Source: Xiphias gladius (Eukaryota; Chordata; Actinopteri; Istiophoriformes; Xiphiidae). Taken from it: a stretch of DNA of 64,000 nucleotides. This document shows positions 759-58,980 of the stretch, one piece after another (within the stretch, counting starts at the first letter, position 1; each line of letters begins with the position of its first letter). The notes under the pieces were generated by a model. That model did not search any database, was not told the origin of the DNA, and saw nothing but the letters and a program-made list of their open reading frames with translations. A program made the position numbers and the translations under genes. The stretch lies in assembly GCF_016859285.1 (NCBI RefSeq), contig NC_053404.1, positions 18,759,105 to 18,823,104 of the forward strand. Direction: 5' to 3'.

Positions 759-8246
<7,488 letters not shown>

Positions 8247-18800: not shown

Positions 18801-19011
18801 AATTTATTGATTATAGCTACTTGAAGCCAAGTCTCGAGAAGCTTGAACTCTCAATATAAAAAACATCGACGTAGTAGCTTCGTACGATTCTATAATGCTC
18901 TATTACATTTCACAACTGTTGTTGGAGCTGTTCGGGCAGGAGCTCTTTCCCTGGCTCGCTTCCACTGCCATAACAATGGCATGTGGAATTACACAATTGT
19001 GCTCATCGGGG

Positions 19012-19021
19012 GGAAAATCCC
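19012..19021 (-). promoter_or_regulatory. kappaB-type site (GGGATTTTCC on the minus strand)
   Basis: Read on the minus strand, the ten bases match the NF-kappaB consensus GGGRNWYYCC exactly. It sits 10 bases upstream of a TATA-like box and 120 bases before the chemokine ATG, where an inflammatory chemokine promoter would carry it. Function is inferred from position and motif. Confidence 0.6.
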
Positions 19022-19031
19022 AGGGACACGC

Positions 19032-19038
19032 TATTTAA
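19032..19038 (+). promoter_or_regulatory. TATA-like box of the CCL20-like gene
   Basis: TATTTAA about 105 bases upstream of the ATG, predicting transcription start near 19060-19070 and a short CT-rich leader. Paired with the kappaB-type site immediately upstream. Confidence 0.55.
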
Positions 19039-19142
19039 GGAGTCAGTGCAATGCGGTCTCTCTCACCCTCTCTCACTCACTCTCACTCTGGACACCTCAC
19101 ACTGTCACAGACCGGCAGAGCAAGCAAACCAACTGTGGAAGC

Positions 19143-21064
19143 ATGGCAAGCGGCAATGTGCCTCTCCTGGCAGCTCTCTGCTTCCTCGTGATCCTCACCA
19201 CCTTTGTCGGCAGCACACAGTCAGGTGAGTCCCTCCGCTTCTACCGGTGATACATGCTCAATATCCTGGATTTGTATAATATTGAAGGCTTTCCGTCATA
19301 TCTGTCAGACTTTTTATGCATTTAGGAAAGGACAAGGAAAAGATAAATTTTATTTTATCGTTAGCTTTATATTTTTTTAGTACATGTGGTTTCTGCAAAT
19401 TTTAATACTCGAACAAACTGGGTATACGTAGAATTAATATTGTATAGGTTCATGAGGATTAGAAAGCAGCAGATTAAACTTTTATTATTAAAAAAGCAGG
19501 CTACCTTGTTTAACTGCTGTGTTCCCAGTATCAAAATGACAAGGCCGCTCACACTGTAGTTTTGTTTACAATCTGTTCTCGTGCGTGTCTCTGTAGCGAA
19601 CTGCTGCCTGAGGTACACCAGGCGTCCGTTGCCTTGCAAGTGGCTGCTGGGATACACCATCCAGACCATCAACACTTCCTGTGACATCAGCGCCATTGTG
19701 TGAGTTAACGGTCCAGTCTTATGCCGTGGCACAACACTGAGAAGTAGGCCGGAATTAATGGCACTTTATTGATCCCGTGGGGAAATTCAGAAGCACAGGG
19801 AGCAAGTCAAAAACAGGTAAAGACACTCAGACGAAAAATGTAACCAGTCAGGTGTCTGATAGTTATAGGAAATAGATATCAGAATAAAATTAGACACAAT
19901 AGACAATTTAGGCAGGTTGTTCATTACATAAAATGTGCAGTAATAATTAGAAATAGGGCTGGGATGAGCAATGATCATCATTCTGTTAATCTGCTTTGTC
20001 TGATGACAGTTTGAAATCACAAATTATGAAATTTGCTGTAAGCTGAGACCAGGAAAAGTCACAAGTTCTCAAATTTGAGAACCTGGAACCAGCAAATGTT
20101 GGGCATTTTCACTTAAAAAGAACGGCTTAAACAGTTAATCAATTAACCAAATAGTTACTGATGGATGTTCTTTTGATCGACTAATCAGTTAATTGACTAG
20201 TGGCTGCAGCTCTACTTAGATACAAGTTATTGTAGTGAGGTACAATGTATTACATGAATAAACACCGTTAACAGAGTAATACTGTGCAAAGGCACTTGCA
20301 ACATAAGTAACTGAAAAATATTAATATACCTTAAATAAACATGTGGCAGTGCACCCTAGTAATTAAAGTTTGGATGGCTGAGTAAAAACAACAACGTTTT
20401 TTAAAAGGGCCGGCATCGAGGAGAGTGTTGTCTTTTATCTTATTACTCATCATACCTGCTTTGTGGTTTCAGGGATGGGCTTTTTTTTTGCCCTGATTAC
20501 ACAACTGATTGATCTCGCATTCTTGACTGGCTTGTATCTAAACTGTGCAGTGGTTCCTCGTCTGTGTCTCAGCCGTAGTTAAAGAGTAACCCAAATAACT
20601 TGGCAAGTGCCGCGGCACTTTCTGAGAGCAGCCTGTTTGTGACTCTTGTGTGCGCGTGTGTTGAGGTCACGCTGCAGTAAATATTTACTAGAGACACTCT
20701 GGGGCTAGTACACTGGATTGAGACCGCGGGGAGGGAAACCGTATCTCGAGGTGTAATTAAGTGCATCCGTGCGCCTCAAGTGTGATCACTTTTTTCACTG
20801 TTTCCCCCAGCTTCCACGTTCCGGGGAGGTTTGTGTGTGCCAACCCTTCAAAGCAATGGACCCGGAGAGGGATGAAGTGTGTTGAGTGAGTTATAAACAC
20901 CCCCCTCTAGTGTGTTTAATGTAGTCTTTTCTTTATAGTATATTCATTTGGTACACTAGCTGAACCAAATTCATGTTTTGTTTTCATTTTTTTTATTTTG
21001 TAGTGAAATGAGGAGGAAGAACGCTCAGATCAACAAGGAGAGAACCACTGCCACATCAGTATAA
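19143..21064 (+). CDS. ccl20-like: CC chemokine, CCL20-like, secreted
   Basis: Four exons: 19143-19224, 19597-19699, 20811-20885 and 21004-21064 (TAA), junction phases 1, 2, 2, giving 106 residues. Exon 1 is a signal peptide (MASGNVPLLAALCFLVILTT) ending STQS. Exon 2 begins ANCCLRYTRRPLPCKW with the adjacent cysteines and ends TSCDISAIV. Exon 3 has FHVPGRFVCANPSKQW, the third strand and fourth canonical cysteine. Exon 4 is a Lys/Arg-rich tail (DEMRRKNAQINKER). CCLxYT, SCDIxAI and VCANPxxxW all match CCL20 (DCCLGYT, GCDINAI, VCANPKQTW), and human CCL20 also has four exons. Two extra cysteines (LPCKW, GMKC) probably add a third disulphide. Other fish CC names are possible. Likely induced through the kappaB-type site upstream. 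Confidence 0.87.
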
Positions 21065-21858: not shown

Positions 21859-22255
21859 CGGTTTCCATCCAAAAGAAGTGGAAATTTTCACCAAATTTTG
21901 AGAAAATCAGCAAAATGCAATGAAAATTAATGCACATTTCCATCCAATATTAGGAAGTGGTTCATTGAGATGAACGGCTGGTGGGGCAAATTCCCCAGTT
22001 GAGTGCCATTAAACCATTGTAGAAGAAGAGGGTACAATGAGAGGATGTATTTAAAAGAGCAGCAGTCAGGCCCTCAACTGGTGAAAAACAATTTAGAAAA
22101 CATGATGAAAATGTGGCATTTCTGTTCGCTCCGTGTATTAACTTGAGGAAGGTTACAGTCTCCTCATCGCTCCACACAGCTCTGAAGCTTTTAGTCTCTT
22201 CAGTGGAGCAGAAGCTTCGGTGGACGTTTAAGTCACGTGCTTCATGTACGTTCAC
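21859..22255 (-). mobile_element. DNA-transposon remnant with a Myb/SANT-like ORF fragment
   Basis: Starts with a terminal motif (cggtttccatccaa) that also forms the ends of the MITE at 58766-58980; the next 90 bases align with that MITE. On the minus strand, 21962-22255 is open and contains FRAVWSDEETVTFLKLI, the tryptophan and acidic pattern of Myb/SANT-like DNA-binding domains carried by some fish DNA transposons (Harbinger group). Truncated and probably inactive. Class assignment is inference. Confidence 0.5.
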
Positions 22256-22520: not shown

Positions 22521-22732
22521 CATGGATGTCTGAAAAAAATTCCACTTTGGTTGTATGGAAACTTTTCAACTTGTGGCTCCTGATTTTCCATTACAGATGA
22601 TTAGTAAGTGCAGCTGATCTAAAAGTGTCTAGACAGAGCACAGGCCAGACACTCAAAATCAAATGTTCCATAATGTTCAGTATTTGGTAATAAAAAGTAA
22701 TGGCAGCCTCCTTTAGATAAACTTATGGCATT

Positions 22733-22738
22733 TTTATT
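22733..22738 (-). terminator. Poly(A) signal of TLR copy A
   Basis: AATAAA on the minus strand about 70 bases past the stop of the last exon. The equivalent position is kept in copy B (32571-32576). Confidence 0.5.
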
Positions 22739-22807
22739 TTAAAACGAATTTAAAAAAAAACCAAAACAACAAAAAACCTGATACAGTGAGGAATGTATTT
22801 CATTTCT

Positions 22808-25800
22808 TCATGGTCTCTCCACCGCAGAGCGGAGGAGACTGTCCTCGCCAAGATGTTCTCTGGTCTTCAGAGCCTGGCGGAGTTTCTCCCAGAACAGTTG
22901 GGTGTGCTCTCCGGCTCGAGGCCAACTCAGGTAGGTCTGCTTCTTCAGCAGTCTCCTTATGCCGTAGTAAGGAGACAGCTGAGAGGTGGGAATCTCCTCC
23001 AGAAAGACCAGGATCAGCACGTCCTTCTGCTCATCGAACAGACGGAAGCTAGACGGGAGAAACAAAGATGGATGGAGTAGAGGCAAGGCTCGGTTATTTG
23101 TAAAGCACCTCTCAAATAGCTTGTTTTGACCAACCAACCTCGAGGTTCTCAGTTCACAATGATAAACAGTAACAGAAGCTGTAACCATCGAATGCTTTAC
23201 ATATTTGCTTGATAAATGACTTGAACATGAATATTTATCAAAACCGATTAGTCAAGTAATTGTTTCGGAACTATATTAGTTTTCCTTGGGTTAACTTGCA
23301 GGCTTGTCTTAAGTTTAACGTTATGGCAGGGTTTATGATGACCGTAATAACATGGATTTTGAGATAATTTTAACTTAAAGAAACATTCATGTGTAATTCA
23401 ACAGGTTATCCTTGAAAACTCTTTGTCTGCTTTAGTTTTATTTCAGTATCTGCTAAAAGTTCAAGTCAGTGTTTTCATTCACATTTGCAATTTGTATGTT
23501 GAAACACCAGAAATTTTTGGGGAAAAAAATGTAAATCTTTATAAGAAAGTTTTGTTTTTTTCTTTTTTGCTTTTCTGACATGTAAAAGTGGATGTGTTGA
23601 TAAAAAAAACACATCATGAAATACGTGAAGCATGTGACTTGTTTGTCACTCAAGCGTCTTGAGAACTTCAGCGTTACTCATGAAACAAACATATAAGCCA
23701 CATAACGTTTTCTACATCGTCTTCCACCATTTGAGGTTGGACTGGCTTAATTACATCATCTTGTTGCAACCTCTTCTTTTGCAGTGGTTTACTGGCGCCC
23801 AACTGGAGAATTAGCACCACCAACAGTTTGTCTTGATATGCGCAACTCCTGATATTCACAGGGCAGTAGCGGACAAACATGGACATTAATTTGCATATTA
23901 TCGCACTGATTTTCCGGAAATTTGTTTTTCACTACACTTGGATGGAAACTTGCCTTTTTTTATGTGTACCCTGTGACATTCGAACCAAAAAAACGGGAGA
24001 GAGAACAAGAAATCAGTAAGAACGTGTGTGAGAAGAAGCCTGCCAAGTCAGAATAGGATACACTAGACCTTTTCCTTCTTTTTTTGCCAGTGGCTTTGTA
24101 TTGAAAGGCTAGTTTATTCCAATACGAAGGTTAAACACATGGATCACAAACGTTTATGTGAATAGCATAACTATATAAGAACTGATTATTATATAGGCAT
24201 AGCTAGTCAACAAATAACCTTAGCATAATGTATCCCATAGACATGCATCATATAGACTTAGTGAGGCGTTTAACTGCCATGTGTCTCAGCTCAGAGATGT
24301 TTAAAGTGAGCTGACACATTACCTGGCCACCTGGATCTCTCTGGAGCACCACTCACTCTCAAGGTACCTGCGACTGATCACACAGATGGTCTTCCTGCTT
24401 CCATAAATGGCATCTGTGATGTTGTCCACGATGGGTTTACCTGAGCAAGACAAAGAGAATGAGACCATGATCACTTTTCTCCCCATGGGTTTATCTGAGT
24501 GCATTACAAAAAGTGCTACGGTGACACCTACTGAAATTTGGATGAAAGCAGGTTATAGCTTTACATGTCAATTGTACACATCATAATCAGATGGCTTTGG
24601 CTAACTTTGCATGGAAACCTATCAGAGAAAAACATCACTTTTGTCAACAGTTTTATTTTACTGCCATTGGACTCGAAATGCACTGCAGATATCTGACTTT
24701 TTCTTTTGATCATACCATCACTACCAGTATTGCATTACTGGTCTCCCCAGCTTAACCTACAATCTTGTCGGATGCAACGAGTCCAGGAGATGTGGAGATG
24801 GAATTGAAACCACTAACTGAAGTACAAGGCAGGATGAATGACAAATTACATTATTTAAGTTAGGCATAATACACAACAGGTTATCCTGAAATGCAAAAAG
24901 AACGGACCATACAAAGGCAAAGAATGCTATGACTCGAGTCCATTACAACAGATTTCACAGGTTTATCATTTTTTGCCTCATGTCTGAGGGGCAGATGTCA
25001 TCTTTCATTTGTTGTAGGACAATTTAATCCATCTTTATTTCACTTACACATGCATTCTTCTCTATTACAGTTTTCTACAATTTAAATCATTAGAGGCTAT
25101 AGTTTGATACATGTACAAGCAGCACACTCTAGTGGCTGAAGAGCCATTACCTGTAAAGTATCAAAAGTAAAAGCACTTCATGCAGAGAAATTGCCCGTGT
25201 GATGTACCATTATATCATTAGATTACTATTTCTCATCCATTCATATTTAAGCAGCATTTAACTGTTATGGTTGAGGTGGAACTAGCTTTGAACTATTTCA
25301 TATAAGGCTAATGATTATTTTCTTTAACAATCCATTAATTGTTTGGTTTGTAAAATGTAAGAAAATAGTGACAGATACCCATTAGATTTACACAGAGCTC
25401 AAAGTGATGCATCATCACATTTTAGAAGCTCAAACTATTAAATATTTGTATTAAAAATCACAAACAATTGATCACTGCGTGTATACTGTAAAGTTTTATT
25501 CTTACAATCTTTTTATTACGTAAAGTAACATTTGTTTGACTCTGATGGTCAAATAAATGTAGTGTAGTAAAAAGTACAATATATCCCTCTGACATTTAGT
25601 AGAGTAGAAGTATAAAGTTTCCTGAAATGGAAATACTTTTCGTAAGTAAATACGTCAAATATGTACTTAGGTACAGCACTTGACTAAATGTACTTGGTTC
25701 GTTATGTTTCATGCTCAGGAGACCATGAAAGTACCAGATTTCATGGGATATTTAATCAGATATTTCAGTCTGGACCAAAGAGTTGGACGGAGACACCAGT

Positions 25801-28447
25801 CAACGGACTGACATTGTCATCTCTAGAGCTGCTAGCATGACTTGAAAAAATTCTAGAAACTTAAGTAGACTGCCTTTTGAGTTGCTGATTAAAGATCAGC
25901 TGGAATAAGAGAAGTATTTATTTAATGGCAGGTGTAAAGACCAGTCTTACCAGGCTCAAAGTCACGATGGTGCAGACACACTCTCCAGCCCTGTTCTCCC
26001 TCCAGTTTGGGCAGCAACTCTCGGATGACCCAGGGCTCATCATGGGTGTTGTAGGAGATGAAGGCGTCATACTGATTAGGAGCTTGCTTGTTTTTATGCT
26101 TTGTGTCAAAGAGCATAGCCAAGAAGAGGTAGTAGGCATAGGCCAGGTGCCACCTCAGGAAATGGTAGGTGAAGGACACCACCATAAACAGGAGGACTGT
26201 GCATGTGGTGGAGATAAAGCAGATGAATTCAATATCTACTGAGCAGAGGCGGACGTCCAGTTCCAACAGTTTCTTGCCTTCAAAGCTGGCAGGATAGTTG
26301 CACTTAAAGTTATACGCATCAAAAATTTGCGTTTGGTTGTTGTTCTTTACCCACTGGAGGAACCGGGCATTATCGCAGTCACAGGTGAAACTGTTCCCTT
26401 GAAGATCCACATAAACGAGAGCTGGTACGGACTTTATTATTTCTTCACTGATAACTGAATATTGATTCTTTCTCGCCTGCAAGAACTCCAGTTTGGCTAG
26501 GTTGGCATGTAGGAGAAAATCTAGAGACCGAAGACTTGTTCTAGATACGTAAAGACTTTTAAGGTTTGGAATTGAGGAAAACAAACCTGGAGAGAGATCC
26601 ATAAGCTCATTTGAGCTAATGTCAAGTGTTTGCAGCTGAGGCGTGTACGTAAACATGTCTTCATGCAAAGATAAAAGTTGAATGTTCCTGGTATTGAAAA
26701 CCAAGAGATTTGTCAAACCTTGCAGGAAGTTGCGAGGCAAGTGAGACTTCTCCCTGCGGTGTTGTGAGGGAATAGCCAATATCTCTAGACGGGACAGCTG
26801 AGAAAATGGTGCATGAAGCAAAGCTGAACTGGTTTCATATTTAATGCGATTTTCCCTAAAATCCAGTCTTTTTAAATTTATAAGATCATTGAAAACACCC
26901 TTGTTTATTTCCTCTGCTGTAATTTTATTAATCTGCAGCAGAATCTCGGTAAGATTCGTTAGACCAATGAAACTTCCATTTTCAAGTTCACTTATTTGAT
27001 TTTCATGTAATGACAAGTTCTGGAGGGACTGTAAGCCCCTGAATTGCTCGTTTTTAAGGGCAGTGAGAGAATTTCCATTCAAAAGTAGTTGTCTAAGATT
27101 TGGCAAGTATTTTTGGAAAGCACCGTTTAACCTGGATATGTGGTTGGTCTGTAGCTTTAAAACTTGCAATCGTATTAAATCCTTGAAAACACATTCTTTT
27201 AGAGCTGAGATTTCATTCCCACCAAGGCTGAGCTCTCTAAGCATTGTCTGATTGGTGAAATCATCACATCCAAGTTTGCTGATTTTATTAGAGCTGAGAT
27301 TCAACTCTACAAGACTTGGTAGATTCCTTGTGGCAGCTGGAACAGATGAAAGCATGTTGTTCCTCAGATTCAAGATTCTTAAACTTTGAACAGATCTGAA
27401 GGCGTTGACATGGATGTTGTTTATTTGACTCTCTGCTAAATCCAACTCTGTTACATTAATGCACAACTTCAACATATGTGAACTGACGGACTTCAGTTCC
27501 TTATTGCGGAGCTGCAGTGTGGACATTGTTGGGATGGTGCAGGAAATGTTTATTAGCGCTGTGAGGTTATGATTAATTGAATTCATCCTGAGAGTTGTCA
27601 GTGAGGAGTTCACGGTCTCTAGTAATGTTTTCATGTCATCAAAAGCCATTTGAAGCCCACTAATATCAAGAATAGACACTCGACTAAAGAAAGTCTTGTT
27701 CCGCACATCCCATATCATCTGTTGCTTTCTAGAAGAGTTGCCGATTTCAAGCCAGGTGAGATTTGGAAAAACGTCTGCAGTAATACTAAAAATTGCGATT
27801 GGATTCTGAGACAAATCAAGGGATTTAAGTTCTAGCGAGTTGTTTGTCAGATCCCATGAGTGAAAAGTGGTTAAGTTATTGTTTTTAACAGACAGCTCTT
27901 TTAGATGTGGCAGGTGCTGTAATATTAAATGAACTTCTGTTATGTGCTGCAGTTTGTTGCGAGAAATGTCCAAAAACTTTAAGCTTGTCATGGGCTTAAA
28001 AGAGGTGGATGCCACAGCTTTGATGTGATTACTATTAATTCTGAGCTCGGTGAGGTTGCTCAGACCATGAAACAGATCCTCTCCAAGTTCAACAAGTTTG
28101 TTATTATTTAGATTTAACTTCTTGAGGGAAATCAGATTGGCAAAGGCACCGTTATCTATCTGCGAAATTCTGTTGAGTTTTAGGTCTAACTTTGTCAAAA
28201 CTGGTAGATTTGTGAAATCTGATACTTTTACTCTTGATATGTTGTTTTTAGACAAGTCAAAACCTATCACTGTTGAGGGAATATCTTGAGGAACAGTTCT
28301 GAGTTTACTATTGCTACATATGGCAACATCGTAACTGATTCGGCAAGTCTTCAGTGCAAATCCTGTGACTGGAACAACAAAACTGCTGATATTCAGCAAG
28401 TGGATATAAATTACGAAATGAAAAAGTTTTCTTTCTCCTGTTGCCAT
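22808..28447 (-). CDS. Toll-like receptor, TLR22/TLR23/TLR13-like, tandem copy A
   Basis: Three exons: 28447-25951, 24440-24323 and 23048-22808, phases 1 and 2, giving 951 residues. Signal peptide about 1-31; leucine-rich repeats about 50-680 (LxxLxLxxN units such as LKKLNLNNNKLVELGEDLF); C-terminal LRR cap with TCDCDNARFLQWV and later cysteines, about 680-735; membrane helix about 738-763; TIR domain from 792. Box 1 is YDAFISYNTHDE; box 2 is HHRDFEPG with the BB-loop proline; box 3 is the FW of QLFWEKL in exon 3. Introns split the TIR right after RDFEPG and after IQVA. The TIR wording (LEGEQGWRVCLHHRDFEPG, SRRYLESEWCSREIQ) is that of fish TLR11-group receptors. Ligand unknown here; signalling through MyD88-type adaptors is inferred from family. 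Reading on past 25951 gives a false 841-codon frame. Confidence 0.9.
23660..23950. mobile_element. Right-hand transposon end facing the remnant at 21859
   Basis: Ends with cttggatggaaact at 23937-23950, the inverted form of the left end at 21859. Further in, ggtttactggcgcccaactgg at about 23786-23806 is the inverted counterpart of ccagttgagtgccattaaacc at about 21996-22016. The two half-elements bracket the last exon of TLR copy A. It lies in that gene's second intron. Confidence 0.5.
24441..25950 (-). other. Intron 1 of TLR copy A
   Basis: About 1.5 kb, AT-rich, compared with 525 bases in copy B. Only the ends align with copy B by eye (for example attaaagatcagctgg near the donor). No coding content was seen. 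Confidence 0.7.
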
Positions 28448-29275
28448 TGTTTCATCCCCTTCACTCCAGGACCTATTTTAAAATCTCCGTTACAAAAGAA
28501 CAAGTGAAGTCCAACCAGTAAGAAATTGCAGTTTCTCCGTGTTTACTCCAGTTGGTTTATAAACTGCAGAAAGTAATGCTGAAAATTCAATAAAAACACA
28601 CAAATAAAGGCCATCAGAAGCAGTGACACACAACAAATACTCATAATTATAACACGATAATAAATCATTGCCATATTTTGGTCCAATATGTCATTATGGA
28701 AACAGTTTAAACATAACATCTGAGCACAGATGTTATGTTCAACCTTATTAGAAGTGCAAAAAATGGTAACACTGCAATTAAACACTTATTTTTTGCACTT
28801 AATTTCTTCTACCTTTCCCTTAAAACGCAAGGTTGTTACTCCCTTGGTCTTGTTTTCTTCCGCTATACCTACAGTTAAGCATCAGTTGGAGCTTGTCAGT
28901 ATTTTATTTGCGATAAAATGAAAGCGACAATGAAATTAGCAGGTAAATTACGGTCTTCATTATACAGTGCTTCCAAATAAACCAATGATTAAGAGACATT
29001 GTCTTGAGCATATGACGAATAATGGTTTCTGATACTTACTGTGTCACACAAAGCTATTTAATTACTGATCTCGAATCCGCGGAATCTTGTACTTCAATTA
29101 TCTTCCTTTGTTCAAATAAAAAGTTTCTGTCAATTCAAAAGAGTGAAAACAGTGTCTCTGTCGACATAACATCCAAGTGTGCATGAGAAAAAATGTTCAT
29201 CTTGCTGTTTGGCTCACCACTTTTTCTCTGCCAGTCCTCCGTTTTCTCCTTTCTATTAATCCAATGAGGAAGTGA
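28448..29275 (-). promoter_or_regulatory. 5' flank of TLR copy A, duplicated in copy B
   Basis: About 0.83 kb upstream of the start codon is about 98-99% identical to 38325-39150. Similarity breaks off abruptly after an agtgaga motif. The region probably holds the leader and proximal promoter. A plausible acceptor (ttttaaaatag) sits about 30 bases before the ATG, so a non-coding first exon further up is possible. Confidence 0.5.
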
Positions 29276-32200
29276 GAGTAGCTTCGGAGGAGGGGGCGGG
29301 GGGCTGGGGGTTTGTTGTGAATATTGACTTTGTTTTGTGCAAGATTCATCTTGATTAGTTTTTTCGTGATATTTCATTGTCATCATTGTCATTTTGTTAA
29401 TTCATGTCAGAGGACGCTAGTGTGTTTGCATTCATAAATACATTAAAAAAAACAAACTCAAATGTACTAGATGTCAATTCACTTTACTTCACTGCAAATT
29501 GGTAGTCTGGCCTCTATTCACTTCTATCTTTTTCTCTTTCTGTTTCATGCAGAGATTTGTGGTTTTACCCACTTCTGAGTAATCACTACTGTAGTGCAAA
29601 GAGACCGTCCTCCAACACCCACACTTCCTCTTCTCTGATGATACTTGACTTTTAAATGCAATGGGGTTCTTTTATATTGTGGCTTTAATCCGTGTCAGCT
29701 GTTTGTTTGGGGCAGTAGAAACAAGATGTGAAAACAACGCTGACAAATTAGCACTTTTAAGTTGATACGGCAAACTTGTTAGCAAAACGGTAGCGTATTT
29801 ACACAGCCAGCAGAGACTGTATGGAGAAACTATGGAGCAACATTGTCATTAGTATGGAGTTGTGTTTCCGGCCACCTGACAAATTTAAGTCCAATATTCA
29901 CTCTCTTTTAGCTCTGTTTTGCCCTCCACCAACTCCTGAGGGAAATATCTAGCTCTTTAGCTGCTAAATGCTCCACTGTGTTCACCAGCTATTGGCTCAC
30001 TTCGTTTGGCAGTTGGTGCTGATTAGGTAGCATACACTGTACGCTTTTAGAGCTTTTCAGCAGGCAACATGGAAGCAGTTAGACTGAACCAGAACAGTGA
30101 AGCTGTGGGCCAGAGAACCAAAACAAGGTGCTGAAAGGTGCTAAAACGCTCCATAGAATTGGGGGTGAACTGCAGTGATAATTCTCTGTGTTTCTGTCAG
30201 TACAAGCAACACCTTTCACATACACATACTAATATGATCCATTTTTAATCTAAAATATTGATTATAGAAGCTTTGAATATTGGATTTGGATTTTAACATG
30301 CTTTGTTGTCTCATTTTTGGCTGGAAAAAAGATATTTTTTGTCTTCGGCCCTTCTGAAATTCCAATAATATGAGCTGGAAAAAGTTTGATTGGTAGTTCC
30401 TCAATCAAGTAAAACAGTATGAGCTGGGAAAAATTTTAGAACCCAGAAATCTCAACATGTCAAGTCTTTACTGAGTAACTGGTATTTTCTAAAAATGTAA
30501 ATATACACTATTATGGCCAGTTGATGTTGTAGCTAAAAAAAAAAAACAAACACTTTTAATATATGCTGTACTTCAAAATAATAGTAATGTCATTGAAGTA
30601 ACAATATACTCCTCTGTACAGATGTATATAGTAATATAGTAATAGTAAGTCAACCTCTGCTGTTCAGGAAAAAAACTTCAACGCCAATGTTTGGTAAATT
30701 TGCACCATTAAACAGTTAGTGAAATGTTTTAGGTTTCAGCTGGCATCTGGTAGAAATAAATAGAAGAGCTATTTCTTGATATTCTCGTCACTATGCGTGA
30801 TTTCTTGTATATTGTATCTAGTAATGAATAATAATATCTATAAATCGTGTACTACACTTAAATGTGTAGAAATATGTGGTCCTTTTGTGTTCACAGAGTA
30901 AGACAAGCCATCAGTCTATAAACAAATAAAGTGTGATTTATTGAGGGAATTAAATCATCCACTTTGCCTCTGTAGCTCGTACCTAGCAGTGTCCCTTCAG
31001 TGTGAGAAAACAATATTTTTCCGAATGTTCATATCATCTCTAATCCCCTTTTCACTTCCTTATCTATACTTTGACAGTTCCTCAATCAAGTAAATGATTT
31101 AGCAGATCTGTGTCACAGTGTCATTATGTCAGCTATGAACATTTATGTGATTAAAAATCTCGAACAATGACTGTGAACACAACAATACGAGCAATCCGCA
31201 GAAAAGGACTGGTTCTTTTAAAGCACAAAACGGCGCTCCCAGTGCCCATAATCATTGGTGCACAAACTGGATCAAGTTATATAAAATGTTATGTAAAATA
31301 ATCTAAAAACTTATGACATGTTCCAAATACAGTGTCACCAAAAGGGGAAGAGAGGTCACAAGTTGAAACTTATCAACATGGTTGAAACATAAACAGAAGT
31401 TTGTGCCAGATATGAAAACCCAATTTTGTTGCAGTGTTTGTAGCGATAATTTTCATGTAGGGTTTCAATCACCTTGTCCCCCCATGTGCTGTGTTTTACA
31501 TGTGGAGTATAGATCTGTGAGGATTTAATGTTGGCAGGTGATGAAATTTTGATTTCTGCATTTGGTTCTCTCTCTTCGGTCTGTTCTTTGTGCTAGGCTG
31601 AGCAAACCAGCTGTTGTAGCTTCATGTTTGTGGTTTTGATCTTCTAATCTAATTCCTGAAAGATTGTCTTGTAAGTCTAGTGGTTACAGAATAACACAAA
31701 CTGTATGATTTTCCCCCCATAATTAATGTTAAGCTTTTTTGAATATACAGTAAGTTCTTAAATTGGTCTGTGTGGAGTAATATGGTGGTTTCTGAGCAAT
31801 ATCATCATAAGATACACACAAGGGGTAGAAAACAAACCAGAATAACTGAGATCAACATGAGTTGTTTCTGCATCATAAATGGCACAAACTGCAAAGGGAA
31901 GGTGTGGAAAATGTTCAACATACCAGGAAGGAAACCTCCCTGCTAGCTCAGAGTCCATAATTACCTATTATCATTTAGCGATATCATCAGAGCTCTGGAT
32001 TTTAATGAGTTGGTGGACAGTTTTGCACAGAAACCGGTTAAGGGAAAAATGCCATCATTAAGGTAAGACAGTTGACAAGGTTACTGCGTCTTTACGGCTG
32101 TTTACTTAATTTATCAAGCTCAGTGATCAGTGCTTCGTTGTGCCTCTTGGAAAATGCTTTCTCACTGGAGCTATGTGTCGTGTTGGCGCCATCAGATCCG

Positions 32201-32400
32201 AAGGCATTTGGAGGGGAAAAAAAAAAGTTTTGGAAATGCGAGGACGAATGATGCATAAAAGGTCACCTCTAAAAAGAAATTTTGCTTGTTTCCAGCTAGC
32301 TGCTTCATTTTTTAAATATGGTAAACGTCCATAACTAAGTCATCGTGGTGGCAGCGTGTCTTTCAACATGGAAGACTACTTTCAGTCATAGGTTAGTCTT
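29276..32400. other. Region between the two TLR genes
   Basis: Upstream flank of copy A. Parts align, much diverged, with the flank of copy B: the gtggtttattgagggaa block at about 30930 versus 39845, and the block at about 31425-31575 versus 40395-40540. This shows that the original duplication extended to about 31.6 kb. A dispersed repeat occupies 29865-30150. No further gene was seen. Confidence 0.6.
29865..30150. repeat. Dispersed repeat, 'ggccacctgacaaatttaag' family
   Basis: Shares with 49870-50060 the ordered blocks cacctgacaaatttaagtcc, cctccaccaactcctga, agctgctaaatgctccact and the gttcacc continuation. The copy here is longer and adds a tail with gctgaaaggtgctaaaacgc. Class unknown. 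Confidence 0.7.
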
Positions 32401-32570
32401 CCAGTTTGGTTTTATGGAAACTTTTCAATTTTATGGCCCCTGATGTAATAAAAGTGTTTAGACAGAGCACAGGCAAGAAAGTGAGCTCTGAAAATCAGAA
32501 ATTTTCCAAAATGTTCAATATTTGGTAATAAAAAGTAATGACAGCCCCTTTTAGATAAAATTATGGCAAT

Positions 32571-32576
32571 TTTATT
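32571..32576 (-). terminator. Poly(A) signal of TLR copy B
   Basis: AATAAA on the minus strand about 100 bases past the stop of copy B, in the same place as in copy A. Confidence 0.5.
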
Positions 32577-32677
32577 GTAAAAAGAACCAAAACAAAACAA
32601 AATAAAGAAAGAGTCCAAAATGACTCAAACCACTGAACTATGCTGGCTGTAAACCTCATACAGAGAATATTTCCTTT

Positions 32678-35600
32678 TTACCACTGTCTTTCCACCACAG
32701 TGAGGAGGAAGTTGTCCTCATTACAATCTTCTCTGGTCTTCAGAGCCTGGTGGAGTTTCTCCCAGAACAGTTGGGTGTGCTCTCCGGCTCGGGGCCAACT
32801 CAGGTAGGTCTGTTTCTTCAGCAGTTTCCTCATGCGGTAGTAAGGAGACAGCTGAGAGGTGGGAATCTCCTCCAGAAAGACCAGGATCAGCACGTCCTTC
32901 TGCTCATCGAACAGACGGAAGCTAAACGGGAGAAACAAAGATGGATGAGAACCTACAAAGGCAAAGTGCTGTAACTACATCTATCTGACTTTCTGACATG
33001 TTTTTCTATATATATTAAAAAAAAAAAATTATGCCATAAAAATGCGTAATTTGTGACGTAATGCGTAACATGAAAGCAGCTTTTAATGTCTGCAGCAACT
33101 ACAAAATGGACCTAAAAACCAATACACAGTATGATTACTTTGTATGTGGGGTCCCCCAGGGGTGATGTCGTCAAAAAAATATTAAGTCACATATACAATT
33201 AATCCTTTCCCTCAGTTTATTAATCCACCCACTCGGTTTATTAACAGATTTTCACATACATTTTTTTAAATCTTATATATTTTTTATATATTTTATTTTA
33301 CGACAAGACCCTTGAGGGGGGGGGGTCCCCAACTTTGGTTTTGTAATCTGATGTAGGATTTACTGCACCCTCTGCTACAGAAAGACAGGTAACTACACAG
33401 CTAAATTAAGAGGCTATTATCAAGTTAGCTGGCTAGCTTGCCAGATAGCCGCGGCTAGCCTTAGCTAAAACTAAAGCTAAGTGTTTTTATTAAAATTAAA
33501 ATATTCATTTTGATTACCATAAATGTATGAGATTTCTAAATTGCTCCTATCTGACCTGCTGTCATTCCGGACATGTCTGAACACGTTCACATGCAGGGCT
33601 TATGCGGAACAAACGAAAGCTTTAATAATAAACCGCGATATCAGACCGTTTTTCAAAAAACTACCGCCCCAATCTAGACATATGAAGCGAGCCACATGGC
33701 GAGTCGAGAATGACTCCTACGCCGAGGCAAAGTTTTTTTTTTTTTTTTATTATCAGTGTAGTAAAAAATGTCAATTGGGGTTTTGAATGTGATTTTTCTT
33801 ATTTCTGGAGCAGCCCACACAGACAGCGTAGCGTGAGGAGCACATTAGCAGAGCAGCGGCAGCCAAGATGGGGTCCAACCAGGTGGGCGAGCAAATCGAT
33901 GGGAGGTGCGTCAGTTCCCTTACTGGCCATCAGATCATAAGATCTGAGAAGACTCAAATTCCTCTGCTAAACACTTTAAGTAGTGTTCATGTCTTTCGTC
34001 AGGAAAAGAAAAATAAACTAGCTTAACATTCTTTCTTTTTTGTGTATTAGGTGTAAAAGTTATACAAGAAATACAACCTGGTACTAGCTAGCTAACGTTT
34101 CTGTTAGCCCTATAGAAACCATGCGAAACAGACTGTGATATAATGTCGGCTGGAATCGAACCGAAGACAAAAGCCTCTCTTGTGCTGTTTGTGACACACG
34201 AGTTGCACATACGTGAATTGAGCGCTGCCTTGAAAGCGTACACGTGACATTCCTGCCCCCGGTCCTGTTAACGTTTGCTCGTTCCGCCTCCGCCGTCGAC
34301 CACACACTCTCGCTTCCCCAGTGCTCTATTAGCAGTTTCCAGGAACTGCAGTACCCCCACCCGGCCACCAGATGTCCCCAGACTTTCCCTCCATTCCCGG
34401 GTCACCTGACCTTCCCTGCCCACTCACGGGCCTGTTCCTAGTTTTCCCATCAGCCTTCCCGCTATTTAAACCGGCCTCTTTCTTCATGCTTTGGCTTATT
34501 TCTTTTTGTTTTGTTTTTTTTTGTCTTGATTCTGTGCCTGTTTGCCTCCTGGCCTGCTCGTCTGTAAGTTTTGATCAATTTAGGTTATTAAAGAAGCTTC
34601 ACTGCATCTGCCTCCCCCTCGTGTCTGCGTTTGTGTCGGTTAGAGCCATAATGTGAGAATTCTAGAGAGAAATGTTGAGTTTCATTAATGACGGCTTAAC
34701 ATTGTTCTGTGCCGATTGGAATTAATCCTGTGGACAATGGAGATAATGCTGAATTTATCAAGACACACAGAAAGCGTGGAGTAAGGTTTGAGTTTGCATT
34801 TACTGGGAAGCAGGGGGAAATTAGAAATAATAGATAATACTGAATAAAGATCTAGTTCTCTCTGCCACTAGGGTAAATAAAATTTATTTTATAATTTATG
34901 GTAATTTGATAGTCAATTTATTAATTTCAGCACTTAATTTAAGTGAAGACAGTTATTAAAAGTTACCTGAATTAGCCCTTAGGCGTTTCAAATTGAAGAT
35001 AAGGTTTAAGGTGTGTGTAACTGCAGTGTTGAAGGTGACAGCTGCAACATGGGTTTTGGAGACATGTTTAAACTTTGAGAACCATAAATGTGTAGATATT
35101 AATCCAACACCTGCATAGATGATTAACATCAGCTTAATGTAACACACAGGCATGCTTCATACAAACTGTGGGCTGAAAAATTACCTGGCCACCTGGATCT
35201 CTCTGGAGCACCACTCACTCTCAAGGTATCTGCGACTGATCACACAGATGGTCTTCCTGCTTCCATAAATGGCATCTGTGATGTTGTCCACGATGGGTTT
35301 ACCTGAGGAAGAGAAAAAGGGGAAAAGCAAAACAGTCAGTGATAAAACCATAGTCACTTTTTCTCTTCATGTGTTCCTCTGATAGTGCGGTACAAAAAGT
35401 GCTACGGTGACAGCAACTGCAGTATAAATGATGGTACAAAATGACACCATCAGTACATTGTTTTTCAGATTACAGCATTTAGTGTACACTTAGAAATCTG
35501 ATGTGTTTTTGTGTCTTGAAGAATCCATGTGTAAGAAACGTACTTGAGAAAAATGCCACTTCTGTTTCACTGCCATTGCACTCAAAGGCCACAATGTGTA

Positions 35601-38324
35601 CCTCTGACTTCTATTTTACAGTAAACCCTTTCTCTTTTGATAGTATTATCACTATTTCAGCTGCACGATTGGTCTACCCACCAACACCTTTAAGCTAGTT
35701 AGAGCCACTAGCATGTCTTAAATCTAAAAACAAAAACTTAAGTAGATTATATTATGAATTGCTCATTAAAGATCAGCTGGGATAAGAGAAGAATTTATTT
35801 AATGGCAGGTGTAAAGACCAGTCTTACCAGGCTCAAAGTCACGATGGTGCAGACACACTCTCCAGCCCTGTTCTCCCTCCAGTTTGGGCAGTAACTCTCG
35901 GATGACCCAGGGCTCATCATGGGTGTTGTAGGAGATGAAGGCGTCATACTGATTAGGAGCTTGCTTGTTTTTATGCTTTGTGTCATAGAGCATAGCCAAG
36001 AAGAGGTAGTAGGCATAGGCCAGGTGCCACCTCAGGAAATGGTAGGTGAAGGACACCACCATAAACAGGAGGACTGTGCATGTGGTGGAGATAAAGCAGA
36101 TGAATTCAATATCTACTGAGCAGAGGCGGACGTCCAGTTCCAACAGTTTCTTGCCTTCAGAGTTGGCAGGATAGTTGCACTTAAAGTTATACGCATCAAA
36201 AATTTGCGTTTGGTTGTTGTTCTTTACCCACTGGAGGAACCGGGCATTATCGCAGTCACAGGTGAAACTGTTCCCTTGAAGATCCACATAAACGAGAGCT
36301 GGTACGGACTTTATTATTTCTTCACTGATAACTGAATATTGATTCTTTCTCGCCTGCAAGAACTCCAGTTTGGCTAGGTTGGCATGTAGGAGAAAATCTA
36401 GAGACCGAAGACTTGTTCTAGATACGTAAAGACTTTTAAGGTTTGGAATTGAGGAAAACAAACCTGGAGAGAGATCCATAAGCTCATTTGAGCTAATGTC
36501 AAGTGTTTGCAGCTGAGGCGTGTACGTAAACATGTCTTCATGCAAAGATAAAAGTTGAATGTTCCTGGTATTGAAAAGCAAGAGATTTGTCAAACCTTGC
36601 AGGAAGTTGCGAGGCAAGTGAGACTTCCTCCTGCGGTGTTGTGAGGGAATAGCCAATATCTCTAGACGGGACAGCTGAGAAAATGGTGCATAAAGCAAAG
36701 CTGAACTGGTTTCATATTTAATGTGATTGTCCCTCAAATCCAATCTTTTTAAATTTATAAGATCATTGAAAACACCCTTGTTTATTTCCTCTGCTGTAAT
36801 TTTATTAATCTGCAGCAGAATCTCGGTAAGATTCGTTAGACCAATGAAACTTCCATTTTCAAGTTCACTTATTTGATTTTCATGTAATGACAAGTTCTGG
36901 AGGGACTGTAAGCCCCTGAATTGCTCGTTTTTAAGGGCAGTGAGAGAATTTCTATTCAAAAGTAATTGTCTAAGATTTGGCAAGTATTTTTGGAAAGCAC
37001 CGTTTAACCTGGATATGTGGTTGGTCTGTAGCTTTAAAACTTGCAATCGTATTAAATCCTTGAAATCACATTCTTTTAGAGCTGAGATTTCATTCCCATC
37101 AAGGCTGAGCTCTCTAAGCATTGTCTGATTGGTGAAATCATCACATCCAAGTTTGCTGATTTTATTAGAGCTGAGATTCAACTCTACAAGACTTGGTAGA
37201 TTCCTTGTGGCAGCTGGAACAGATGAAAGCATGTTGCTCCTCAGATTCAAGATTCTTAAACTTTGAACAGATCTGAAGGCGTTGACATGGATGTTGTTTA
37301 TTTGACTCTCTGCTAAATCCAACTCTGTTACATTAATGCACAACTTCAACATATGTGAACTGACGGACTTCAGTTCCTTATTGCGGAGCTGCAGTGTGGA
37401 CATTGTTGGGATGGTGCAGGAAATGTTTATTAGCGCTGTGAGGTTATGATTAATTGAATTCATCCTCAGAGTTGTCAGTGAGGAGTTCACGGTCTCTAGT
37501 AATGTTTTCATGTCATCAAAAGCCATTTGAAGCCCACTAATATCAAGAGTAGACACTCGACTAAAGAAAGTCTTGTTCCGCACATCCCATATCATCTGTT
37601 GCTTTCTAGAAGAGTTGCCGATTTCAAGCCAGGTGAGATTTGGAAAAACGTCTGCAGTAATACTAAAAATTGCGATTGGATTCTTAGACAAATCAAGGGA
37701 TTTAAGTTCTAGCGAGTTGTTTGTCAGATCCCATGAGTGAAAAGTGGTTAATTTATTGTTTGTAAGATACAGCTCTTGTAGATGTGGCAGGTGCTGTAAT
37801 ATTAAATGAACTTCTGTTATGTGCTGCAGTTTGTTGCGAGAAATGTCCAAAAACTTTAAGCTTGTCATGGGCTTAAAAGAGGTGGATGCCACAGCTTTGA
37901 TGTGATTACTAATAATTCTGAGCTCGGTGAGGTTGCTCAGACCATGAAACAGATCCTCTCCAAGTTCAACAAGTCTGTTATTATTTAGATTTAACTTCTT
38001 GAGGGAAATCAGATTGGCAAAGGCACCGTTATCTATCTGCGAAATTCTGTTGAGTTTTAGGTCTAACTTTGTCAAAACTGGTAGATTTGTGAAATCTGAT
38101 ACTTTTACTCTTGGTATGTTGTTTTTAGACAAGTCCAAACCTATCACTGTTGAGGGAATATCTTGAGGAACAGTTCTGAGTCTACTATTGCTACATATGG
38201 CAACATCGTAACTGATTCGGCAAGTCTTCAGTGCAAATCCTGTGACTGGAACAACAAAACTGCTGATATTCAGCAAGTGGATATAAATTACGTAATGAAA
38301 ATGTTTTCTTTCTCCTGTTGCCAT
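32678..38324 (-). CDS. Toll-like receptor, TLR22/TLR23/TLR13-like, tandem copy B
   Basis: Same three-exon layout as copy A: 38324-35828, 35302-35185 and 32921-32678, phases 1 and 2, giving 952 residues. Exons 1 and 2 have exactly the same lengths as in copy A (2497 and 118 bases). The order is signal peptide, leucine-rich repeats, four-cysteine cap, membrane helix, then a TIR domain with YDAFISYNTHDE, RDFEPG and FW. About 27 residues of exon 1 differ, mostly in the repeats: a cluster KELSVKNNN versus QELYLTNNK near residue 180, DFRENRIK versus DLRDNHIK, and REK versus RRK. The C-terminus differs more (YYRMRKL; ending VVERQW). Both genes look intact. It lies head-to-tail with copy A, starts about 9.9 kb apart. 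TLR22, TLR23 and TLR13 are the candidate names. Confidence 0.9.
32922..35184 (-). other. Intron 2 of TLR copy B with inserted repeat DNA
   Basis: About 2.26 kb, versus 1.27 kb in copy A. It includes a GC-richer block at about 34180-34670 that looks inserted (see separate entry), a gctagct-rich patch at about 33420-33480 and poly-T and poly-G runs. No coding exon was recognised. Confidence 0.6.
34180..34670 (+). mobile_element. Probable retroelement fragment in copy B intron 2
   Basis: A block unlike its AT-rich surroundings: C-rich, with a TATA-like ctatttaaaccgg, runs of cctgcctgttt type, a late attaaagaagcttcactgc and an end near cgtgtctgcgtttgtg. This order resembles promoter, R region and tail of a fish LTR or similar retroelement. 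Absent from copy A's intron 2. Ends and class are uncertain. Confidence 0.35.
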
Positions 38325-39150
38325 TGTTTCATCCCCTTCACTCCAGGACCTATTTTAAAATCTCCGTTACAAAAGAACAAGTGAAGTCCAACCAGTAAGG
38401 AATTGCAGTTTCTCCGTGTTTACTCCAGTTGGTTTATAAACTGCAGAAAGTAATGCTGAAAATTCAATAAAAACACACAAATAAAGGCCATCAGAAGCAG
38501 TGACACACAACAAATACTCATAATTATAACACGATAATAAATCATTGCCACATTTTGGTCCAATATGTCATTATGGAAACAGTTTAAACATAACATCTGA
38601 GCACAGATGTTATGTTCAACCTTATCAGAGGTTCAAAAAATGGTAACACTGCAATTAAACACTTATTTTTTGCACTTAATTTCTTCTACCTTTCCCTTAA
38701 AACGCAAGGTTGTTACTCCCTTGGTCTTGTTTTCTTCCGCTATACCTACAGTTAAGCATCAGTTGGAGCTTGTCAGTATTTTATTTGTGATAAAATGAAA
38801 GCGACAATGAAATTAGCAGGTAAATTACGGTCTTCATTATACAGTGCTTCCAAATAAACCAATGATTAAGAGACATTGTCTTGAGCATATGACGAATAAT
38901 GGTTTCTGATACTTACTGTGTCTCACAAAGCTATTTAATTACTGATCTCGAATCCGCGGAATCTTGTACTTCAGTTATCTTCCTTTGTTCAAATAAAAAG
39001 TTTCTGTCAATTCAAAAGAGTGAAAACAGTGTCTCTGTCGACATAACGTCCAAGTGTGCATGAGAAAAAATGTTCATCTTGCTGTTTGGCTCACCACTTT
39101 TTCTCTGCCAGTCCTCCGCTTTCTCCTTTCTATTAATCCACTGAGGAAGT
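38325..39150 (-). promoter_or_regulatory. 5' flank of TLR copy B, matching copy A
   Basis: Counterpart of 28448-29275 with only about a dozen single-base differences. Identity drops sharply beyond about 39150. The shared flank implies that the two receptors may have nearly the same proximal promoter. Confidence 0.5.
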
Positions 39151-41820
39151 GAGATTAGTTGGGTGTGGCATCTTTATTTTGAAATATAGTATTTATTCAA
39201 GCCTCTCAACATTCAATGAGAAAAGAAATTAAGGAATAATGTTAAGTTTTCATTATGCAATGACTATGTTGTTCAGTATTTTCAGGAGGCTGAACTCACC
39301 ATCATCTCCTGGTAGATTCTGGCGACACTCCAAATAATTCATACTAGAGGACGCTATTGTGTTTACATACATTAATAGGTTAATAGATTTATGAAAAAAT
39401 ACAAAAGACAAATACAGCAAATGCAAATATCTTAGATGTTGATTGCAAATCCATATGTATAAATTGTATAAAAACTGTGTGTGTTTGTGTGTGTGTGTAT
39501 ACTGCATGTCATTGAGGGAACATTTTGCTTTTCTTTACAGCTGATTTACATCACACAACAGTGACTCAACTTTGATTCTAAAAAAAATCCCTGTTACGTC
39601 AAAGTTTGGGAAAAACATTATTACGCAATCCACAATGGAAATAATTAGAGTAAGAACCGCTGTTTTTTTTTTTTCTATTTAGTTTTTTCTTCTCAACGTT
39701 TTTTCACAAAGTTTTTTCTTCTTAACCACTTAAGCGTGGGTTTTGATCTTCCATCACAGTGTCCTCATTAATAAACTGTGCTTCAGTTAATCTCTTCACT
39801 GTGAAGACCGGGTGAAGTCAGCAGTTTATATAAAAACATAAATTGTGGTTTATTGAGGGAAGTAAACTGTCCACTTCCCCTCTGTAGTTAACACACGCCA
39901 CTGTCACGTAAGATTGAGGAAATGTTTTATGAGTGTGCACATGTTCTCTGATCTCCTTTACACACCCCTATCCATGTATTATTAGCTACGATTTCCTTAA
40001 CTGAGTAAATGATTTGGGCGTCACTCTGGGTGTCATTCTGTCCGCTATGAACATTTCAAAGACTGTGAACAATGACCGCAACAGTAGAAGTGAGCCACAA
40101 AAAAAAGGGGGCTCTGTCAAAACCGAATTGTGAACACGGATTCAAAGGTGAAATGTACTTTGCTCAAATTCCAGTCTGATCATTTTGTGAGGTTTGGAAG
40201 TAGGTTCTTTATAGGAGTTTTCGAGATAACATGAGAAAACTTTATCATGTGGAGCAAAACGGTAAAAAAAACAAAACAAAACAGACATGTTCCAAACACA
40301 GTGTCAACAAAAAGGAACACAAGATCACAAGTTTAAACTAATTACAAAAGATGTAATGTTTATAATATGTCCAAGATGTACAGTATATTAAGAACCTCTT
40401 GTGTTGCAGCGTTTGCAGTGACGATTTTCACGACGTATTTGCATTACTCTGGTTTCCCCTTGTATTTCACAAGTTCCGTATAGCTAAGTAGGGAAAACTG
40501 AATTGGTAAGTGATAAATTCCTAGTTTCGGCATTTGATTGTATCACTAACCCTAATCCTATTTTATCTCCAGTCGTCATGTAATTACAGAGCTAAAAGTT
40601 TAGAGCAACATCAAACCAGTGAAAAAAATTTCCCTGCTCTTCTCATCCTAACAAAACTTAAGAGCCACAGACTTAATAAAACCCGTCCAATATTTTTTTT
40701 CCAGACCACACCCCCCCGCACTACTTTGATGGTCTTTTTCTCAGCTCTCCCTACATAAAGCTGTCCGGCAACTTCAGCTAAAGTTCCAACAAAGGCGAAA
40801 AACCTGAACCCATCACAGCAAAAGTCTCTGCCCTTGTTTCCAATGGTAGCAGAGGTTAAAGTACCACTGCTTTCTTTCACTGTGTGACTACCGTCAACTT
40901 CACTTGGCACCAGCAGAGGTCTCAGTTGGGAAGGGAAACTCAAGGCCAGCCTCGCTCAGTTCACTGGATTACACCCTCTGTAACGCCTGTGCATACATCC
41001 ACCTACAGAGGAGATGACGCAGCAGTGGATCAAATCAAAAGAAACCAGATCCGATTTTTATCTCCAGTACGTCTTGTCTCCTCCTTTGTTACAGCCGAAC
41101 TGTGTGCGCAGTGTACTCGCTTGCCTGCATCCATGTCTGTATGAATGTGGGTGAAATGCATGTCAGGTGAGTATGTCCTCCTTTAACACACACACACACA
41201 CACACACTAATACTAATTTAACACAATACATCTTAAATGATTTGATTAAACTGAGTAATGTTCTAATCATACTCTCATTATATGATCACACTGACTCAAA
41301 TTACTAGAATGTGTTAAGTTAACATCCCACTGGAAATCATAAATATGTATAAGAATTCATTAGTGAGACTTGGAAGAGCTTTATTCACCAATATAAGAAA
41401 AATGTGGCACAATTACTGCAGCGCTGGAAATATAGATAGAAAAGGGGAATATGCCACCACATGTTAGTGTCACGAGAATTCCTTTAAATGCATCTTATGA
41501 CAATGCAGTGATGTTGGGAACGTGACTAACAAGGAAGGTAGATTAATTGTGTGTTTTGTCAAAGAAAAGGTCTTAAAGGACTGGTTCGGCTAAGTGGTAG
41601 CTGGTACCGAGGTCGTTTTTTTGGTATATTGGGTGAATTTGGTTCTTTAATATTGTGTTCCGCTGTATTTCCTGATCCAAATAGTACCCGACGCGAGCTA
41701 GAGGTGGAAATCACAACTCACTTCACCTTGTTCATTTCAGTTCAAGGATTCAGTCACTCACTATGTAGTTTTTTCATATATATATATATTTCCCCCCCTA
41801 AGCTAAGTGGTCGCATTTAG
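39151..41820. other. Intergenic region upstream of TLR copy B
   Basis: Diverged duplicate of copy A's flank up to about 40.54 kb, then single-copy-looking sequence. Short (GT)n at about 39478-39500 and (CA)n at about 41188-41208. The minus-strand 110-codon frame at 40611-40943 has no family features. No gene was called. Confidence 0.6.
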
Positions 41821-43079: not shown

Positions 43080-58609
<15,530 letters not shown>

Positions 58610-58765: not shown

Positions 58766-58980
58766 GTAGGTTTCCATCCACAGGTGGCGCAAATAAAAAC
58801 CAAATTTTGAGAAATTCGGCTAAAGAAAATGTGAATTCATGCACGTTTCCATCCACTTAATTTGGGGGTAAAAACTTTTTTGCGATATTTCAAGATTTTT
58901 TGGGGGGAAATTTTTTTTCATTCGCAAATTGAAAATGCATGTTACATGGTAAATACATGAAAACAGGTGGATGGAAACAA
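58766..58980. mobile_element. MITE with 'gtttccatccac' terminal inverted repeats
   Basis: About 215 bases running from ggtttccatccac to gtggatggaaac, a perfect inverted pair at the ends. The first 90 bases align with the left end of the remnant at 21859. There is no coding capacity. A non-autonomous DNA transposon, family unknown. Confidence 0.75.

Follow-up and report, generated by a model that had tools for sequence, protein, structure and literature searches.

Two ages within a tandem pair of tlr22-type genes in Xiphias gladius: an old duplication probably followed by recent gene conversion of the 5′ region and ectodomain

Gene conversion is already known, also between Toll-like receptor (TLR) genes of mammals and birds. 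According to the available parts of PMC2077338, it keeps a sharply bounded tract of the mammalian tandem paralogues TLR1 and TLR6 alike; this tract measures about 0.9-1.0 kb and covers the transmembrane part and most of the TIR domain, while the N-terminal ectodomain has diverged. Here we describe a new example in a 64,000-nucleotide stretch of the Xiphias gladius genome (NCBI RefSeq assembly GCF_016859285.1, contig NC_053404.1, positions 18,759,105 to 18,823,104 of the forward strand), which is referred to as the window and in whose coordinates all positions are given. The window holds two tandem TLR genes on the minus strand, A and B, which appear to be of the tlr22 type as judged by position, exon plan and length. 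As in TLR1/TLR6, a sharply bounded tract is alike between tandem paralogues, but its polarity along the gene is reversed, with the 5′ non-coding part and the whole ectodomain homogenised and the C-terminal tail diverged. We consider it very probable that an old tandem duplication was followed by recent interlocus gene conversion, which would be the best explanation of the pattern.

Recent conversion of TLR paralogues was likewise described for avian TLR1A/TLR1B and TLR2A/TLR2B, and TLR2A/TLR2B also show an N-terminal tract, as well as two separate tracts, in the available parts of PMC3125219. The avian genes differ from A and B in that they belong to the TLR1 family and in that their tract edges were studied in coding sequence and the 3′ untranslated region (3′UTR); the word “promoter” does not occur in PMC3125219. 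More generally, an available section of a newt study (PMC4316619) places TLR duplication and conversion in mammals and birds mainly in the TLR1 family, and reports many duplications in fish. The tlr22 expansions of cod (PMC3549756, PMC4850435) and the tlr22 paralogues of mudskipper (PMC6403153) resemble A and B in their map3k15 neighbourhood and in amino-acid-changing divergence of the ectodomain, as far as the available sections of these papers go. The word “conversion” does not occur in the two cod texts, nor “gene conversion” in the mudskipper text, and in PMC7721727 and PMC10300353 “gene conversion” occurs solely within a cited title. Among the matches listed for open-licence PMC texts, no report of tlr22-tlr22 conversion was recognised by title or start of the abstract.

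BLAST paired positions 25824-29281 with 35700-39158 at 98.15% identity over 3460 columns. Trimmed to its sharp edges, the tract lies on the minus strand at 25884-29276 in gene A and at 35761-39153 in gene B; the two copies are equal in length and free of gaps, with 46 differences in 3393 positions (98.6% identity), and identity between the paralogues is lost within tens of bases at either end. The near-identical block of about 3.3 kb that a sequence-only reading of this DNA had noticed in the two genes is confirmed by these counts. Its proposed limits, 25951-29275, need correction, because they end at a splice site, while high identity reaches some 45-65 bases further, into intron 1, before it drops at 25881. 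The block had also been labelled as exon 1 and promoter. Its exon 1 is coding exon 1 (25951-28447 in A and 35828-38324 in B, minus strand), which encodes the N-terminus, the leucine-rich repeat (LRR) ectodomain, the transmembrane part and the start of TIR, and in which 32 of 2497 positions differ. What had been called promoter is mostly a predicted 5′UTR exon and a predicted 5′UTR intron. Both are predicted because a good donor (ACA/GTAAGT, read from the sequence at 29040/29039) and a good acceptor (TTTTCAG at 28579) are present upstream of coding exon 1, and together they would define, on the minus strand, a proximal 5′ flank plus 5′UTR exon at 29040-29276 and a 461-base intron at 28579-29039 in A, the latter corresponding to 38456-38916 in B. 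The 5′ flank and 5′UTR exon (29044-29281) contain 6 differences in 238 positions, the predicted 5′UTR intron (counted over 28580-29043) 5 in 464 (1.1%, or 98.9% identity), and the remainder of the 5′UTR 1 in 132; the non-coding DNA at the 5′ end of the tract, with the predicted intron included, thus differs at 12 of 834 positions. The upstream edge of the tract lies at the sequence CTCACTTCCTC, common to A and B, which presumably resembles an ETS/PU.1 site. If transcription starts near this edge, little promoter beyond the core would lie inside the tract.

The DNA around the tract differs sharply from it. The introns are unequal in length (intron 1, 1510 bases in A and 525 in B; intron 2, 1274 and 2263), exactly as the sequence-only reading had stated, and whole-length alignments of intron 1 (57%), intron 2 (47%) and the 1.2 kb upstream (45%) were chance-like overall. 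Four flank segments were aligned locally by the Smith-Waterman (SW) method and compared with 60 dinucleotide shuffles each, and two deliberately mismatched pairs served as controls. The SW score was 174.5 for the upstream flank (shuffles 21 ± 3; K80 distance 0.39), 83 for intron 1 (17 ± 2; K80 0.34), 33.5 for intron 2 (19 ± 2, largest 23.5; K80 0.36) and 117 for the 3′UTR with the 3′ flank (18 ± 3; K80 0.135 in the best stretch), and the mismatched pairs gave shuffle-like scores of 20.0 and 19.5. Since every segment holds local homology above shuffles, also the three whose whole-length identity is chance-like, the flanks are old paralogous sequence, and the alignments point to an old duplication and a young tract. 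By the outermost detected homology, the old duplicated unit covers 22540-31575 in A and 32399-40547 in B, both on the minus strand; in the upstream DNA, homology becomes strong from 30587 in A, about 1.3 kb past the tract, and from 39506 in B, 0.35 kb past it. The alignable parts of introns 1 and 2 and of the upstream flank carry about 27-30% mismatches (70-73% identity) against 5 of 464 in the predicted 5′UTR intron, so that two ages are found within one unit. Identity along the duplicated unit is therefore not uniform; the uniform identity that had been set beforehand as contrary evidence did not appear, and the proposal of an older duplication with later conversion of the block is supported by the two ages. 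The accompanying statement that the copies fall apart outside the block is valid for the introns and the upstream DNA and not for exons 2 and 3, which are also highly alike. If neutral rates of about 2.5-7 × 10⁻⁹ per site and year apply in fish, the non-coding divergence of the tract (1.4%) suggests about 1-3 million years.

A search for repeats in the introns and upstream DNA gave only short repeats. A dispersed repeat was observed upstream of the A tract at 29855-29990, with a copy at 49873-50008 (84%), and 12946-12987 is 88% identical to part of the first. In the 3′UTR and 3′ flank (22540-22807 against 32399-32677), the lower divergence fits either constraint or an older conversion.

Protein-level selection cannot explain the identity of the tract, because its non-coding 5′ part differs at so few sites; if mismatches were as frequent there as in the least diverged flank (rate 0.124), the probability of 12 or fewer differences in 834 would be about 2 × 10⁻³². 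In coding exon 1, 31 codons are changed, 27 of them non-synonymously and 4 synonymously. With dN at 0.0145, close to the non-coding rate, and dS at 0.0073 (NG86), the similarity of A and B is not kept by selection on the protein, and ordinary constraint is disfavoured in this exon (omega 0.4 gives p = 2 × 10⁻⁴). The changes give no significant sign of positive selection either: in coding exon 1, 28 of 32 are non-synonymous, a share that does not significantly exceed what neutrality predicts (p = 0.14); in the ectodomain (codons 1-740), non-synonymous changes stand to synonymous ones as 27 to 3 (27 of 30, p = 0.078).

Old homology on either side of a young, gap-free and intron-bearing block is the signature of interlocus gene conversion. 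In this scenario, tandem duplication of a tlr22 gene that was flanked by map3k15 and cnksr2 would have taken place long ago and involved a unit of about 8-9 kb. Much later, one copy would have been repaired non-reciprocally from the other, with replacement of about 3.4 kb from near the transcription start, via the 5′UTR intron and the ectodomain and transmembrane coding part, to the first part of TIR. The tract edges would fall where, by then, little homology was left between the introns and between the upstream regions, and because the ends fall where homology is poor, the length of the tract was probably set by the homology that remained. TIR exon 2 and the greater part of exon 3 would probably have been made alike by short extra patches, and the ectodomains may have been re-diverging since the conversion, chiefly by amino-acid changes. 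The available part of PMC11703093 describes more frequent recombination where transcription starts in CpG islands of sea bass, a fish devoid of full-length PRDM9, and by analogy a conversion start near the promoter would be plausible. It is also conceivable, if rather doubtful, that the pair goes through a reset-and-diversify cycle as a paired nucleic-acid sensor, in which conversion starting near the transcription start repeatedly equalises the tlr22 exons, the introns drift, and selection re-diversifies the ligand-facing LRR strands. If true, the gene pair would explore new specificities from a common, expressed template.

Exons 2 and 3 were compared separately. Exon 2 (24323-24440 in A, 35185-35302 in B), which encodes part of TIR, is identical at 117 of 118 positions, and this identity ends at both splice sites bar a few bases. 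Exon 3 (22808-23048 in A, 32678-32921 in B), which encodes the end of TIR and the tail, aligns over 241 bases, of which 219 are identical, with 3 further columns of gaps; the similarity spans from 26 bases before the exon to about 22857 and is followed by divergence. Its first 29 codons are without difference and its first 65 codons contain six, 2 synonymous and 4 non-synonymous. Over both exons, synonymous differences number 3 in 69.5 sites before the drop and 4 in 10 after it (Fisher p = 0.004), and the synonymous deficit has a probability of 5 × 10⁻⁶ against 25% mismatch. Given how far their introns have diverged, exon 2 and the greater part of exon 3 are too alike, so that homogenisation was probably exon-patchy, probably by separate short conversions; the case is weaker than that for the main tract. 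As the patches follow exons, conversion from fully spliced mRNA or cDNA was considered; it was rejected for the main tract because intronic sequence is present there, namely the predicted 5′UTR intron together with some 45 bases of intron 1. Into the patch of exon 3, intron 2 contributes 26 bases, one of them mismatched (p = 0.003 for a mismatch level of 27%), which also argues against such a template, and exon 2 taken alone remains compatible with it.

Other histories of the locus were weighed against conversion. Because both flanks are homologous, collinear and diverged, neither a single crossover nor a single recent duplication fits. One recent duplication, with introns and flanks afterwards scrambled by insertions, deletions and transposons, would account for the strongly unequal intron lengths and for the dispersed repeat near the tract in A, but it is contradicted by substitutions, not indels alone, at 27-30% in the alignable introns 1 and 2 and upstream DNA, when the predicted 5′UTR intron of the same genes differs by 1.1%; we regard it as highly improbable. 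Hardly credible is the preservation of the block since the old duplication by strong constraint on regulation and protein function: exons 2 and 3 do encode TIR, a conserved signalling domain, but the codon differences in coding exon 1 are 27 non-synonymous to 4 synonymous, and the predicted 5′UTR intron is 98.9% identical. An assembly artefact, in which haplotypes were laid in tandem or short-read polishing drew one copy toward the other, was judged indirectly, from the assembled sequence. It is very unlikely, since flank divergence is far too great for haplotypes, the window is without N, and the 46 differences across the tract, mostly amino-acid changing where they are coding, are unlike copies made by polishing. 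One recent duplication, constraint at the protein level and duplicated haplotypes were all rejected because of the two ages within the unit.

A mosaic of crossovers is improbable; the geometry of its product resembles the outcome of conversion. Unequal exchange might have removed the middle of an older array of at least three copies, or a recent 5′ duplicate might have come to lie beside an older 3′ part through two exchanges, and tandem tlr22 arrays are known in cod, as described in the available part of PMC4850435. However, each crossover leaves one breakpoint, and with old homology on both sides two close exchanges would be needed. Moreover, tblastn within the window revealed no third TLR gene, giving only two more weak matches (41 aa, E 0.11/0.10; 30 aa, E 1.0).

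Several observations weigh against an old duplication with recent conversion. The 3.4-kb tract would be long for a single event of conversion, the TLR1/TLR6 tracts being 0.9-1.0 kb, and the pattern does not tell apart one event, several events and a double crossover. Conversion was inferred from the comparison of A with B within the window alone. Unrelated controls reach 68-69% local identity, so that the intron and upstream K values, although not the scores, are near the noise floor. Adjoining the 5′ end of the tract, old homology amounts to 49 bases only (29398-29446 to 39335-39383, 82%). With K at 0.135, the 3′UTR has diverged less than the introns have, which makes the age of the duplication uncertain, and compared with this least diverged flank the claim of patches in exons 2 and 3 reaches only p = 0.022. 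Finally, the differences within the tract are locally clustered, with 14 adjacent gaps of ≤12 bases against 6.8 expected (p = 0.0026; the 12-base cut-off was chosen post hoc), and they are evenly spread at the 100-base scale (p = 0.30).

We also examined where the amino-acid differences lie in the ectodomain, using position tests that were chosen post hoc and depend on our own placement of the repeats. The 20 best-scoring LRRs contain 18 changes, of which 9 occupy variable LxxLxLxx positions (3.9 would be expected, p = 0.007) and 15 lie within the 11-residue strand motif (8.3 would be expected, p = 0.002). The other 9 amino-acid differences, out of 27, lie outside these repeats and were left out. 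When all 29 placed LRRs were used, 10 of 24 changes were at variable positions (p = 0.015). Five changes fall in one LRR (codons 183-191), without which 6 of 13 are at variable positions. The changes in LRR beta-strands could reflect selection on the ligand-facing side, small islands that escaped conversion, or a short conversion with another copy as donor. This leaning to beta-strand positions differs from cod, where most selected tlr22 sites are on the convex side or in loops, according to the available sections of PMC3549756 and PMC4850435.

Under the conversion reading, A and B would provide a clean TLR case in fish, in which homogenisation covers the 5′ region, the ectodomain and the membrane anchor and spares the C-terminal tail, opposite to TLR1/TLR6 of mammals. 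The age read from a tree of the A and B ectodomains would be that of the conversion and not that of the duplication. The two genes could be mixed up in studies of expression or mapping that use short reads, and the few remaining differences between them are good candidates for ligand specificity.

The window is animal DNA with a GC content of 42%. Both TLR genes are open, and the predicted splicing of their three coding exons leaves them open end to end, giving 951 aa for A and 952 aa for B. Pfam detected the LRR ectodomain in both proteins (LRR_8, 2 × 10⁻⁷⁷ in A and 5 × 10⁻⁷¹ in B) and TIR in A (6 × 10⁻²⁴), the only one scanned for it; TIR of B is nearly identical in sequence. A transmembrane stretch was recognised by eye in the TLR architecture, and the best PDB match of the ectodomain is a TLR13 ectodomain structure. 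On one side, exons of an ASK-family kinase lie at 759-3825 on the plus strand, as a kinase piece, whose best structural matches are MAP3K5, and two HisK-N-like pieces that correspond to the ASK signalosome domain; the gene was resolved to the ASK family, and the label map3k15-like follows from its position. On the other side, cnksr2-like exons at 56501-58609 on the plus strand encode SAM (best PDB match CNKSR2) and CRIC. The published teleost tlr22 region has sh3kbp1, map3k15 and cnksr2 as neighbours, in the available part of PMC6403153, and sh3kbp1 and map3k15 near tlr22 are also mentioned in that of PMC3549756; sh3kbp1 was not seen within the 64-kb window.

Three coding exons with a predicted 5′UTR exon and 951/952 aa fit the plan of mudskipper tlr22a, which has 4 exons and 950 aa in a passage of PMC6403153 that is silent on the place of the extra exon. 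Exon count and length alone cannot part tlr22 from tlr23, because mudskipper tlr23 genes overlap in both (3-5 exons and 915-960 aa, where given in the same source). According to the available text of PMC3549756, tlr22 has one exon in cyprinids and salmonids and several in higher teleosts, and the exon plan of A and B fits the latter. Copy number is one each in the notothenioids studied (PMC8882821) and twelve in Atlantic cod (PMC4850435), as stated in the accessible portions of these papers.

A tRNA scan of the window gave none. An open frame on the plus strand at 18825-19247 contains an ATG followed by a stretch that looks like a signal peptide by eye, and has no Pfam match. Two imperfect palindromes of ~59 bases, each compared with its own reverse complement, lie at 5208-5266 (90%) and 12584-12642 (85%). 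In addition, 21860-21946 and 58769-58855 form an 87-base direct match (77%), possibly from a degraded transposon family.

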